From Desulfuromonadales bacterium (GTDB lineage: Bacteria; Desulfobacterota; Desulfuromonadia; Geobacterales; Pseudopelobacteraceae): a stretch of 62,662 nt of DNA. Positions 15,539 to 19,851 of the stretch are shown here, piece after piece. The position numbers and the translations under genes are program-made. The stretch spans positions 1 to 62,662 of the forward strand of contig DUZX01000020.1 in assembly GCA_013349325.1 (NCBI GenBank), read 5' to 3'. The stretch's first letter is position 1. Each line of letters opens with the position of its first letter. The notes beneath the pieces are model-generated. The model did no database searches and was not told the origin of the DNA. It worked only from the letters and a program-made list of their open reading frames with translations.

Positions 15539-15687
15539 GATCCACCTCCGGATTTTTCCGGACATCCTAGTGTAATTACAGCCATCACGCAATGTAAAAG
15601 AGGTCTAATTACTCATCTCAATTCCTGTTTAATTCTAGCTCAGAATGCGCTACTATGCTTCAACTTGTCCGACGAGGTACCTTTCTC

Positions 15688-16917
15688 ATGCAAACCGTAG
15701 AAGCAAAGCTACGCACGATTATCGATCTTGGCAATCAGTTATCCCAGTTCAAAGACATTGATCTTGTTCTGGAGAAGATTCTCAGCGAAGCGCGCACGTT
15801 CACCAACTGCGATGCCGGTTCAATCTACGTCCGAGAAGGGGACCTGCTCTCCTTCCGCTACGCCCAGAACGACACTATGCAACAACTTTTGCCCCCCGGT
15901 AAAAAGCTCCCCTACGCCAGCTTTACGATACCGATCAACAATAATTCGATCGCAGGTTCGGTGGCGGCCAACGGATCAATCCTGAACATCCCCGATGCCT
16001 ATGAAATCAGTGGCAGCTTCCCCTTTTTTTTCAACCGGTCATATGACCTGCAAACCGGCTATCGCACACGTTCCCTTCTGACAATTCCATTAAAAAACTT
16101 CCGCAAGGATACCATCGGCGTACTGCAACTGATCAACGCCATGGACATCCAAAAGGCCGTGATCCCATTTGAGAAAGAAGATGAGGAAATTATCGGTTAC
16201 TTTGCCAACACCGCAGCCATCGCTGTGGAACGCGCCAAAATGACCCGTGAGATCATCATGCGGATGAACAAGATGGCCGAACTGCGCGACCCTAAGGAAA
16301 CCGGGGCACATGTAAACCGCGTGGCCGCCTATTCAGTTGTCCTCTATGAAGCCTGGGCCCGTACGCAAGATCTCCCGCAATTTGATATCGACAAGAATCG
16401 GGATGTTCTGCGCATGTCGGCAATGCTGCACGACGTTGGCAAGATTGCGATTTCTGACATGATTTTGAAAAAACCGGGGCGCTTTACCGACGAAGAATAT
16501 CAGGCCATGAAACTGCATACGCTTCTGGGAGCCAACCTGTTTGCCGATATCTATTCGGAATTCGATGAGTCAGCCGCCATTGTGGCTCTGAACCATCATG
16601 AACGCTGGGATGGCAATGGTTATCCAGGGCATGTCGATCCGGTAACCCAGGAAGTTCTGGTCGGCTATCAGAAGGAGGACGGCTCTGCTCACGGCAAACG
16701 CGGAGAAGAAATTCCTTTCTTCGGCAGGATAGTTGCGCTGGCCGATGTCTATGACGCCCTCTCCTGTCGCCGTTACTATAAGGATGCCTGGGATGAAAAA
16801 GATGTCGTAAAGATGATTCAGGAGGGATCCGGCACACAGTTTGACCCGAATTTGGTGACTGTTTTTCTGGAGTGCCTGGATACCTTCCGGGAGATACGGG
16901 ATTTATATCAGGATTGA
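15688..16917 (+). CDS. GAF and HD-GYP domain cyclic-di-GMP phosphodiesterase
   Basis: A GAF sensory domain (about 20-170) is followed by a complete HD-GYP domain (about 200-400): H-V-N-R-V-A-A-Y-S, M-L-H-D-V-G-K-I-A-I-S-D, H-T-L-L-G, H-H-E-R-W-D-G-N-G-Y-P-G. All residues required for c-di-GMP hydrolysis to pGpG/GMP are present. Start chosen: ATG at 15688, with GAGGT about nine bases upstream; the ATG at 15655 lacks a ribosome site. No membrane segment, so it acts in the cytoplasm on a small-molecule GAF signal. Confidence 0.93.
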   Translation: MQTVEAKLRTIIDLGNQLSQFKDIDLVLEKILSEARTFTNCDAGSIYVREGDLLSFRYAQNDTMQQLLPPGKKLPYASFTIPINNNSIAGSVAANGSILNIPDAYEISGSFPFFFNRSYDLQTGYRTRSLLTIPLKNFRKDTIGVLQLINAMDIQKAVIPFEKEDEEIIGYFANTAAIAVERAKMTREIIMRMNKMAELRDPKETGAHVNRVAAYSVVLYEAWARTQDLPQFDIDKNRDVLRMSAMLHDVGKIAISDMILKKPGRFTDEEYQAMKLHTLLGANLFADIYSEFDESAAIVALNHHERWDGNGYPGHVDPVTQEVLVGYQKEDGSAHGKRGEEIPFFGRIVALADVYDALSCRRYYKDAWDEKDVVKMIQEGSGTQFDPNLVTVFLECLDTFREIRDLYQD

Positions 16918-17001: not shown

Positions 17002-18021
17002 TTAAAGCGTCCTTCCGTCCACCTCGGCAAACAGCCTCAGTTTTGCCATCATCTCCTCGAATTTTTCCGGCCTGAGTGACTGGGCGCCATCAGATGAAGC
17101 ATGTTCCGGATCAGGATGTACCTCGATAATCAGTCCGTCGGCACCGGCTGCTACTGATGCGTAACACATCGGGGCAACGTAATGATGGTTACCGGTTCCA
17201 TGCGAGGGGTCGATTACAACCGGCAGATGAGTTTTTCCTTTCAGCACCGGAATTGCAGAAAGATCCAGGGTATTGCGGGTGGCGGTCTCAAAAGTCCTGA
17301 TCCCCCGTTCGCACAGGATCACGTCTTGATTCCCCTCACTCATGATGTATTCGGCACTCATCAAGAATTCCTGGATCGTCATCGACATACCGCGCTTGAG
17401 GAGTACCGGACGTTGCAACTGGCCAACTTTTTTGAGCAGCGCAAAATTCTGTGAATTACGGGCGCCGATCTGCAGGATATCGGCATATTCAGCAACCAGT
17501 TCGGCTGTTTCCGGTTCGATAACTTCTGTCACAATCGGCAATCCGGTCAGATCGCGCGCCTTGGCCAGCAGCTTGAGCCCCTCTTCTTCCAGTCCCTGAA
17601 ACGAATAGGGTGAGGTACGCGGCTTAAAAGCGCCCCCCCGCAGAACATGCGCTCCCGCTTTCTTAACAGCAAGGGCTGATTCTATAATCTGCGCTTCGCT
17701 CTCCACTGAGCAGGGACCGGCCATAACAACAACCTGCGTGCCGCCGATTACGACGTTGTCGCTGATTCTGATCAGACTGGCTTCTTTTTTGATCTCTTTC
17801 GATGCCAGTTTATACGGCTGCAGGATAGGAAGTACCTGTTCGACTCCATGCAGCGTTTCCAGTCTCTGTAGCGCCGTTTTACCATGATCACCACCAATCG
17901 CACCGATCACGTCACGTGTCTCCCCATGGATGATATGCGGCTTGTACCCCAATTCCCGGATACTCTTCAGCACTACGTCCCTGTCTTTTTTTGCCGCACC
18001 AGCCTTCATTACGATAATCAT
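17002..18021 (-). CDS. aroF: 3-deoxy-7-phosphoheptulonate (DAHP) synthase
   Basis: The first committed step of the shikimate pathway condenses PEP and erythrose-4-phosphate. The 339-residue protein is the type I-beta form: an N-terminal ferredoxin-like regulatory domain (I-I-V-M-K-A-G-A) followed by a TIM barrel with [28 protein letters not shown] and D-P-S-H-G-T-G. Start chosen: ATG at 18021 after GGAAAGGAGCAGGAA; the open frame extends 27 codons upstream through the attenuator. Expression is probably controlled by the leader described at 18101-18246. Confidence 0.95.
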
Positions 18022-18048
18022 TTTCCTGCTCCTTTCCCGCAAACAGTT

Positions 18049-18072
18049 GGGCCGGAAGTTTCCCCCCGGCCC
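18049..18072 (-). promoter_or_regulatory. Hairpin between attenuator and aroF ribosome site
   Basis: GGGCCGG pairs with CCGGCCC around a 10-base loop, about 30 bases before the aroF start. It lies downstream of the attenuator terminator. Possibly it isolates the ribosome binding site from upstream structure. Confidence 0.4.
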
Positions 18073-18100
18073 AGGCTGCATGATGACAAGATCAGACAGC

Positions 18101-18133
18101 AAAAAACCGGGGAGACTTGCGTCTGCCCCGGTT
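18101..18133 (-). terminator. Transcription attenuator (intrinsic terminator) of the aroF leader
   Basis: In the RNA sense, AACCGGGG-C-AGAC pairs with GTCT-CCCCGGTT around GCAA, followed by T residues (stem arms at 18105-18116 and 18121-18133). This is a near-perfect intrinsic terminator positioned between the leader peptide stop (18160) and the aroF start, so it can stop transcription before the structural gene. Its 5' arm is complementary to a segment inside the end of the leader peptide. Confidence 0.85.
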
Positions 18134-18159
18134 GCGGTTTCGTGTAATAGCTCCTTCGC

Positions 18160-18246
18160 TTACACCTCTACCCGGGCAGACGGCCTGAAATAAAAGCCGT
18201 ACCAAAAGTAAAAGCTGAAAGCGGTGTAGAAGCGGTTTGAGTTCAT
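18160..18246 (-). CDS. Aromatic leader peptide of the aroF attenuator
   Basis: The 28-codon frame contains FYTAFSFYFWYGFYF, with 11 Phe/Tyr/Trp codons in 15, then R-P-S-A-R-V-E-V and a stop. Such a run is typical of leader peptides whose translation senses aminoacyl-tRNA charging for Phe, Tyr or Trp. The start at 18246 has no obvious ribosome site; an in-frame ATG at 18264 would add six residues. The last codons encode the anti-terminator arm, as in enterobacterial phe and trp attenuators. This gene is too short for normal gene callers. Confidence 0.8.
   Translation of the reverse strand: MNSNRFYTAFSFYFWYGFYFRPSARVEV
18171..18182 (-). promoter_or_regulatory. Anti-terminator arm in the aroF leader
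   Basis: In the RNA sense CGTCTGCCCGGG can pair with CCGGGGCAGACG, the 5' arm of the terminator at about 18120-18131 (nine consecutive pairs, then a one-base offset). When a ribosome stalls on the aromatic codons this pairing would form and prevent termination. When it reaches the stop codon the arm would be covered and the terminator would form. Confidence 0.7.
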
Positions 18247-18317
18247 GGAATGATAATTAATCATAGAGTAGGTGCGTTTGTCAAGCGTCAATCATTCAGA
18301 AATTTACCACCGTCACC

Positions 18318-18346
18318 TTGACTCTGGTCTAGCGCTGTGCTAGCGT
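18318..18346 (+). promoter_or_regulatory. Putative sigma-70-type promoter of trpE
   Basis: TTGACT (18318-18323), a 17-base spacer and TAGCGT (18341-18346), ending 29 bases before the trpE ATG. The -35 is good and the -10 is weak. It diverges from the aroF leader. Confidence 0.4.
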
Positions 18347-18375: not shown

Positions 18376-19851
18376 ATGTTTTTCCCCCCTTTTGAAACTT
18401 TCTGTACCCTGGCAGATAGCGGCAACCTGATACCGGTTTACTGTGAGATCATGGCCGACATGGATACGCCGGTATCCGCCTTCAAAAAGATCGATGACGG
18501 GCAGTTTTCCTTTCTCCTGGAGAGTATCGAGGGTGGCGAAAAGTGGGGCCGTTTCAGTTTTATCGGTTCAACTCCTGCTACGATTATCCGCTCGCAGGGA
18601 AATACCGTCGAAGTCATCACCAACGGCGTAACAACACGCCACGAATCACCGGACCCGCTCAACTCCGTCCGTGACCTTCTTGCACAGTATTCTCCGGTAG
18701 AGGTCGAAGGACTGCCACGTTTTTTTGGCGGTGCTGTCGGATATCTCGGCTATGACATGGTTCGGCATTTTGAGACGTTACCGGCCGAAAATCCGGTTGT
18801 GCTGGGGTGCTACGATTCCTACTTCCTGATAACCGATACGATCGTAATCTTCGACACCATGCGTCAAAAAATAAAGGTTGTCTCAAACGCTCATATCACC
18901 GAAAGCGTTTCTGCGGAAGAGGCCTACCGCTCTGCTACGCAGAAAATCACTACCCTTATTCAGCGCCTGCGAGACCCGCTTGCTACGCCAAAAAGTGCAT
19001 CGTGTGTCAAACCGGTTGATTTCCGTTCTAATATTTCCCGTGCAGCGTTTGAACAATCGGTTGAAAAGGCAAAAGAATATGTACGCTCCGGCGACATAAT
19101 TCAGGTTGTTCTCTCCCAACGTTTCAGTGGTGAATTGACCGCCGACCCGCTGGATATCTACCGTGTCCTGCGAACACTCAACCCTTCCCCTTATATGTTT
19201 TTTTTGCGGCTCGATGACACCGTCATCGCCGGGGCATCTCCTGAAGTTATGGTTCGAAAAGAGGGCAGCCAGGTCGAACTGCGGCCGATTGCCGGCACCC
19301 GACCACGTGGGGCCACACCCGATGCTGACGCAATGCTGGCTGAAGAGCTGCTTGCTGATCCAAAAGAGCGGGCGGAACATGTCATGCTGGTTGATCTGGG
19401 GAGAAATGATCTGGGGCGGGTCTGCGTTACCGGCAGTGTCACGGTTTCCGAGTTAATGTTGATTGAACGCTACTCGCATGTCATGCATATCGTATCAAAC
19501 GTACAGGGAGAGTTATCAGAAACGTGCGACGCCTTTGATCTGGTACGGGCCACGTTCCCGGCCGGCACCCTTTCGGGGGCCCCCAAGGTTCGGGCCATGC
19601 AGATTATTGAAGAGCTCGAACCGCTTCGCCGTGAAATTTATGGTGGTGCGGTCGGCTATTTTTCTTTTTCCGGCAATATGGATCTCTGCATCACTATCCG
19701 TACCCTGATAATTAAAGACGGTAAAGTTCACCTGCAAGCCGGTGCCGGAATCGTTGCAGACTCGGACCCTTCTGCCGAATGGCAGGAAACCGTTAACAAA
19801 GGGATGGCGGTTATGCGAGCCGTTGAAATCGCCGAGAAAGGTTTACTCTGA
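18376..19851 (+). CDS. trpE: Anthranilate synthase component I
   Basis: It makes anthranilate from chorismate with ammonia from TrpG. Start chosen: ATG at 18376 after GGAG (491 residues). The N-terminal tryptophan feedback site L-L-E-S-x10-S is present (residues about 47-61). The chorismate-binding domain has [24 protein letters not shown], and [14 protein letters not shown]. One base separates it from trpG, so coupling is probable. No trpD/C/F/B/A follow in this window. Confidence 0.95.

Follow-up and report, generated by a model that had tools for sequence, protein, structure and literature searches.

The aroF gene of the Desulfuromonadales bacterium analysed here, which encodes DAHP synthase, is preceded by a short open reading frame (ORF) rich in codons for aromatic amino acids and by a terminator-like hairpin. 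This arrangement raises the question of whether the entry step of the aromatic pathway is controlled by the translation of its own leader. We consider it very probable that the region is a ribosome-mediated transcription attenuator that reads Phe, Tyr and Trp and controls aroF. The ORF, its aromatic core, the terminator, a covarying antiterminator (the 2:3 pairing) and the wide conservation are established by sequence and comparison, while the working of the switch is proposed from them.

The aroF locus and its leader

The features of the leader and aroF within the window (the whole stretch of 62,662 nucleotides that was analysed) are:

18284-18021, then aroF 18021-17002, minus strand throughout: leader and aroF unit
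18279-18284, minus strand: -35 box TTGACA, beginning 38 nt upstream of the leader ATG, with a weak -10 box
18160-18246, minus strand: leader ORF, 28 codons and stop (ATG 18244-18246, TAA 18160-18162), found in 56/56 readable genomes
18187-18231, minus strand: aromatic run, 11/15 codons, with the conserved core FYFWYGFYF at 18187-18213
18181-18199, minus strand: 1:2 (protector) hairpin CGGCUU...AGGCCG within the ORF, from the predicted fold; 3/200 swaps as good
18171-18182, minus strand: region 2, the putative antiterminator 5' strand (CGUCUGCCCGGG), codons P-S-A-R, covarying with region 3
18142-18165, minus strand: small hairpin GUGUAA...UUACAC, from the predicted fold, in the antiterminator loop and overlapping the leader stop codon
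18101-18133, minus strand: intrinsic terminator, with region 3 at 18120-18132, region 4 at 18106-18116 and the U tract at 18101-18106
18132-18137, minus strand: 5' strand of helix P0, CCGCAA, at the terminator base, from swaps and a sliding search
18076-18099, minus strand: middle hairpin CUGUCUGA...CAUGCAG, from the predicted window fold; similar letters in relatives (uncounted)
18049-18072, minus strand: second GC-rich hairpin (5:6), GGGCCGGGGGGAAACUUCCGGCCC, covarying
18037-18043, minus strand: 3' strand of helix P0, UUUGCGG, immediately upstream of the aroF Shine-Dalgarno sequence, from swaps and a sliding search
18029-18035, minus strand: aroF Shine-Dalgarno sequence AAAGGAG, from the sequence
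17002-18021, minus strand: aroF, DAHP synthase of the TIGR01361 / NF006421 type, 339 aa

The AroF protein matches the profiles TIGR01361 with 400.9 bits (cut-off 267.75) and NF006421 with 512.4 (cut-off 335). Its gene appears to be alone in its transcription unit, because the next long ORF downstream (15655-16917) runs in the opposite orientation. Upstream, trpE (18376-19851, plus strand) is divergent from aroF. In related loci, trpE was seen in the stored upstream DNA of at least 5 of the 40 loci L004-L043 and of at least 18 of 30 further loci, own included (1.5 kb each); since it is present upstream in only part of the loci, the leader travels with aroF and not with trpE. No aromatic-rich ORF was seen in the short stretch before trpE. 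An inverted repeat, CTAGC-N5-GCTAG (18329-18343, plus strand), lies in the divergent trpE promoter region and looks operator-like by eye.

The leader ORF encodes the 28-residue peptide MNSNRFYTAFSFYFWYGFYFRPSARVEV, in which 11 of the 15 residues of FYTAFSFYFWYGFYF are F, Y or W. Elsewhere in the 62.7 kb window, read in six frames, no place exceeds 8 aromatic residues per 15 codons, and the same ceiling held for 40 Markov sequences as long as the window; the aromatic content of the leader is far beyond chance for the window. The 28-codon peptide with 11 aromatic codons in 15 had already been described in the initial annotation, and it is borne out on the minus strand at 18246-18160. The span given there for the attenuator, 18049-18264, is too narrow: the -35 box lies at 18284-18279 and a conserved helix reaches 18037.

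Between the leader ORF and aroF lies the terminator, CCGGGGcAGAC-GCAA-GTCTCCCCGG-TTTTTT, which with its flanks folds at -21.9 kcal/mol (z -5.2), a value equalled by 0/200 shuffles. It had been called perfect; it is an intrinsic terminator, but with a one-base bulge, because of which a generic terminator scan shows it merely as a 5-pair stem. That scan was at background level (2 sites vs 2.4 expected), and so was a generic promoter scan. The end of the peptide coding region, CGTCTGCCCGGG (18182-18171), can form 9 bp, a G.G mismatch and 2 bp with the 5' arm of the terminator, so that the complementarity noted earlier between these two stretches is confirmed by pairing and, as described below, by covariation. 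When the leader sequence is truncated within region 4, the predicted fold contains the antiterminator (-32.1 kcal/mol, z -3.4); when the entire region 4 is included, it contains the terminator. In searches with the covariance models of Rfam, whose families include amino-acid leaders and the T-box, the leader stretch had no match at the gathering score, and with E allowed up to 5 it gave two unrelated matches of chance level; over the window, a tRNA at 2352-2435 alone passes.

Conservation and covariation among relatives

An AroF search of 58 genomes, own included, gave an ortholog in all except G002 (76% complete), and in G019 the start of the gene was missing. Each of the 56 genomes in which the DNA upstream of aroF was readable carries the leader, and 55 of these leaders fit a common pattern of a Trp codon, preceded by aromatics and followed by X-Gly/Asp-Phe/Tyr; the remaining leader (L139) has Leu for Trp and is otherwise aromatic. 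The 40 loci of a further genome set (L004-L043) all fit the Trp-X-Gly/Asp-Phe/Tyr pattern; the two sets overlap, with 17 locus pairs identical in the leader region. Both results of the search proposed in the initial annotation, conserved peptides and covarying stems in related genomes, were obtained, and the absence from near relatives that it had named as contrary evidence was not observed: all 55 readable relatives carry the leader, and the antiterminator covaries.

In the sister order, the leader was found in 31/31 genomes sampled, two of them (L169, L189) by eye. The detector scored 29 of 30 loci above shuffled sequence at p 0.05 or less; L169 was unparsed by it, and the leader of L189 is weaker and lies beyond the scanned stretch. 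Across the phylum, 39 of 59 sampled genomes had an AroF match at E 1e-90. These gave 28 new loci, 3 without a start found, and among the 25 scored, 10 were positive and 15 were not. Two of the positives (L194, L216) look spurious and were rejected, leaving 8 clear phylum leaders, and L190 was missed at p 0.06. Among loci L034-L083, 19 of 49 were positive (L083 was too short); L197 duplicates L061 and L201 duplicates L077, each pair having the same leader. Rokubacteria-labelled loci had a clear leader in 6/8 cases (L062, L064, L067, L069, L072, L080) and none in 2/8 (L051, L075), and a Methylomirabilota-labelled locus (L044) carries one as well, all these loci being drawn from a best-hit list and not a random sample. 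By eye, the hairpin that follows the leader in the six Rokubacteria loci lacks a U run, which the next hairpin has. This suggests a longer chain of alternative pairings, such as his-type attenuators use.

An exact motif scan of 297 phylum genomes matched 6, all of the own family or order, with 4 matches for a reversed control; the scan misses Phe variants, because its pattern permits just Tyr or Cys at position +1. Three contigs labelled Thermodesulfovibrionales or Nitrospiraceae (L031, L034, L037) carry a Geobacter-like aroF, 71-79% identical, together with the leader, and are either misbinned MAG contigs or cases of transfer. The paralogous DAHP synthase gene (52-57% identical) was also considered: among 13 chosen upstream regions, 12 had at most 6 aromatic codons per 15, and the other (L153) had 8/15, the stretch stopping 8 nt short of the gene and leaving no space for a terminator. 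A second DAHP synthase gene (G000:C15:58272-59255, 55% identical) has no aromatic leader.

For the analysis of covariation, 79 distinct loci were available, of which 9 more divergent ones were left out and 70 Geobacterales-type sequences were aligned with MAFFT. With the full alignment as input and no structure prescribed, RNAalifold predicted the antiterminator 2:3 together with the second hairpin. In the 2:3 helix, the pair 48-118 is UA in 46 sequences, UG in 15, CG in 5 and GU in 4, and the pair 49-117 is GC in 45, GU in 13, AU in 6, CG in 4 and unpaired in 2. Weaker pairs are 44-122, which fails in 24/70, 55-112, which fails in 23 with 6 gaps, and 56-111, which fails in 7. The antiterminator alone was paired in 92.3% of cells vs 28-48% when slid, four of five covariation measures were reached by 0/500 shuffles and the fifth (pairs changed on both sides, 4) by 109/500, and for 2:3 and the second hairpin jointly all five were reached by 0/500; the shuffles ignore relatedness, and with 34 of the 70 sequences coming from a single group the cell counts are inflated. 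A group-balanced swap test was also carried out, in which each of 24 sequence groups was given the partner strand of another group in 200 trials. For 2:3, the second hairpin and P0, the own partner was better every time (200/200); the figures were 197/200 for 1:2 and 180/200 for 4:5, compared with 51/200 and 9/200 for the controls 2:5 and 3:6. By these comparisons, the predicted antiterminator, which is exclusive with the terminator and overlaps the end of the ORF, covaries.

A hairpin followed by at least four U in eight positions occurs in 66/70 aligned loci, with a median of -21 kcal/mol. It is absent in L022, L023, L125 and L130 (4/70) and weak in L021; L021, L022, L125 and L130 form one group. 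All five loci keep the leader and the antiterminator, and L021 and L022 are Geomonas. The 1:2 hairpin is mostly paired across the 70 sequences, with T-A replacing C-G in 3 and the pair 30-42 broken in 9, and its support over the control codons is suggestive only. The small hairpin at 18142-18165 has similar letters in relatives (uncounted). For a candidate alternative pairing 4:5, by which the second hairpin would be controlled via region 4, 20/200 swaps were as good in the Geobacterales set. In a wider set, 52 of 57 loci, the own strand beat the swapped one for 4:5; the pairing is not claimed, because the control 3:6 also beat its swaps there and several script hairpins were misplaced.

Whether RNA or peptide is conserved after the aromatic run was examined in 39 loci across clades, hand-picked and mostly from detector positives. 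The element GTC[TCG][GAC]CC occurs in or at the end of the ORF in 30 of them (27 GTCTGCC, 3 GTCCGCC) and is absent in the other 9 selected loci. As GUC(U/C)GCC, it is read in phase 0 in 13 loci (V-C-P or V-R-P), in phase 1 in 2 and in phase 2 in 15 (mostly P-S-A). In 35/39 loci, the sequence downstream of the aromatic run pairs more strongly with the next 75 bases than with shuffled versions at 0.05; in the remaining 4 of this selection the 2:3 pairing is no better than shuffled. Because the element is read in all three frames, what is conserved after the aromatics is RNA and not peptide, and one RNA pairing element in three frames across clades is a clean natural demonstration of selection on RNA.

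Proposed mechanism and alternative readings

The Geobacterales leader ORF seems to be leaderless. In 69/70 Geobacterales-type leaders, TTGAC is found 35-38 nt upstream of the leader ATG, and in L136 it lies at 42 nt, counted from the second of two in-frame ATGs. From this distance and the usual promoter spacing, transcription would start at most a few bases away from the ATG. Of these leader ORFs, 2/70 reach a Shine-Dalgarno energy of -4 or better (12/70 when shuffled), compared with 22 of the 27 sister-order leaders scored and, for aroF itself, 70/70 aligned Geobacterales-type loci. A leaderless leader ORF would make the timing of ribosome loading vs polymerase directly testable.

Among the 70 leaders, the central position is Trp in 69 and position +2 is Gly in 70. 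Before it, Phe occupies -1 in 68/70 and -3 in 65/70, and Tyr or Phe occupies -2 in 53/70. Position +1 is Tyr in 30, Phe in 27 and non-aromatic in 13; Phe or Tyr stands at +3 in 70/70, +4 is Tyr in 59, Phe in 8 and Trp in 1, and +5 is Phe in 68/70. Earlier aromatics are less conserved (61/70 at -9, 53/70 at -8). Aromatic codons number 8-12 per leader (mean 10.6), with averages of 6.6 for Phe, 2.9 for Tyr and 1.06 for Trp. L139 is without Trp and 4/27 sister-order leaders are without Tyr, so some members would not read the full set of three. A ribosome covers about 12 bases ahead of its A site, and stalls at about -2 to +3 would break 1:2 and free region 2; these positions include Phe, Tyr and Trp. 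Judged from its codons, the leader would read all three aromatics.

We infer the following course of events, from the start of transcription and leaderless translation to ribosome stalling, termination and the response to each of the three amino acids. Transcription would begin just upstream of the leader ATG, and a ribosome would load on the leaderless 5' end. With ample charged Phe-, Tyr- and Trp-tRNA, it would traverse the aromatic codons, halt at the stop codon and mask region 2, upon which regions 3 and 4 would pair and RNA polymerase would stop at the U tract. If any one of the three were short, the ribosome would stall in FYFWYGFYF and break 1:2, region 2 would stay free, the 2:3 antiterminator would form in place of the terminator and aroF would be transcribed. 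Such a three-product leader would be a simple OR-gate for the shared first step, and a regulatory answer for the aromatic pathway entry step in Geobacter-like and other Desulfobacterota.

A plain terminator belonging to some other transcript, next to a chance ORF, would fit the background level of the generic terminator scan, but the conservation and covariation over 24 sequence groups and more than one phylum leave this reading with a negligible probability. A nascent-chain arrest, in which the conserved FxFWxGFxFRPSAR would stall the ribosome on sensing a free aromatic amino acid, in the manner of TnaC, where the ribosome arrests with Trp, is very improbable. The core is indeed highly conserved as protein (W 69/70, G 70/70). 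The invariant Gly codon GGN (70/70) is explicable by 1:2 pairing, however, and downstream of the aromatics it is the RNA that is conserved, with the element lying in three frames and no fixed-frame peptide; arrest would also induce on excess, which in our view is ill-suited to a biosynthetic gene.

In another reading, the leader contains Tyr and Trp codons, yet Phe is the main amino acid to which the switch responds. The mean codon numbers per leader point in this direction, and aroR of Corynebacterium glutamicum carries Tyr and is reported, in the passages of the papers cited below, to answer to Phe only. Against it stands the maintenance of the mix, with Trp central in 69/70 and +1 divided between Tyr (30) and Phe (27), and we regard a Phe-dominated response as possible but rather doubtful.

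Beyond the attenuator itself, the long-range helix P0 covaries within the 70 Geobacterales-type sequences and encloses the terminator and the second conserved hairpin. It was judged by swaps and a sliding search and not by alignment columns, because MAFFT misaligns P0 by 1-2 columns between groups. In relatives, its 5' strand varies as CCACAA, CCGAAA, CCGGAA and GCCAAAAG, with the 3' partners UUUGUGG, UUUCGG, UUUCCGG and CUUUUGGC. The best partner of the 3' strand lay within 3 bases of the expected place in 47/70 sequences and elsewhere in 23; among 28 sequences listed, L026, L033, L034 and L120 have a weak P0, no more stable than -4.4 kcal/mol. Tentatively, P0 might refold the antiterminated RNA in read-through transcripts once polymerase has passed and thereby determine how well aroF is translated or how long its mRNA lasts; attenuation of transcription would then be coupled to translation. 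If true, this would add a second layer to one leaderless, three-amino-acid sensor. The leaderless leader ORF and helix P0 are two features that the initial annotation had missed.

Comparison with known attenuators

The attenuators of trp, pheA and pheST in E. coli work through alternative pairings 1:2, 2:3 and 3:4, the control codons preceding region 2, and their leaders each read one amino acid and have a Shine-Dalgarno sequence on the leader ORF. The leader described here would share this logic; it differs in having codons for three amino acids and, in Geobacterales, in apparently lacking a Shine-Dalgarno sequence. At a DAHP synthase gene, an attenuator was reportedly described by Neshat in 2014 for aroR-aroF of C. 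glutamicum. According to the accessible parts of two papers, aroR is a Phe-Tyr-Phe leader before aroF that acts by ribosome-mediated attenuation and answers to Phe and not to Tyr (PMC11802643, PMC4046766). As far as these parts go, it is alike by function in placing an aromatic-codon leader before a DAHP synthase gene and works alike, whereas the present leaders have 8-12 aromatic codons including Trp and occur in other phyla. The initial annotation named attenuation as known for phe and trp operons; on the same partial texts, attenuation by an aromatic leader is known at a DAHP synthase gene as well.

In the openly accessible papers searched, no aromatic attenuator in Geobacter or Desulfobacterota was found. 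A table of candidates in Shewanella, in the available part of its paper, has the entry "Attenuator sensing tyr-tRNA" for aroF and refers to an E. coli paper of 1980 (PMC2659441). The main text of a structured-RNA scan that includes a Geobacter genome does not contain the word aroF (PMC11109978), and neither aroF nor Geobacter occurs in the text searched of PMC2965389.

Individual properties of the present leader have parallels in other systems, as far as the partly available sources describe them. The trpL (rnTrpL) transcript of Sinorhizobium meliloti starts at the leader ATG (PMC7298713), a leaderless leader ORF alike to the one proposed here, which differs in being a Trp leader controlling trpE(G). 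The Corynebacterium ilvB uORF motif is a mixed Ile, Leu and Val leader with an antiterminator and a terminator (PMC11109978); it is alike in having several end products per leader and differs in serving the branched-chain pathway and in its organism. Compared with these systems, what appears to be new, although priority is not certain, is the mixture of Phe, Tyr and Trp codons, its occurrence across Desulfobacterota and Rokubacteria, the apparent leaderlessness and P0.
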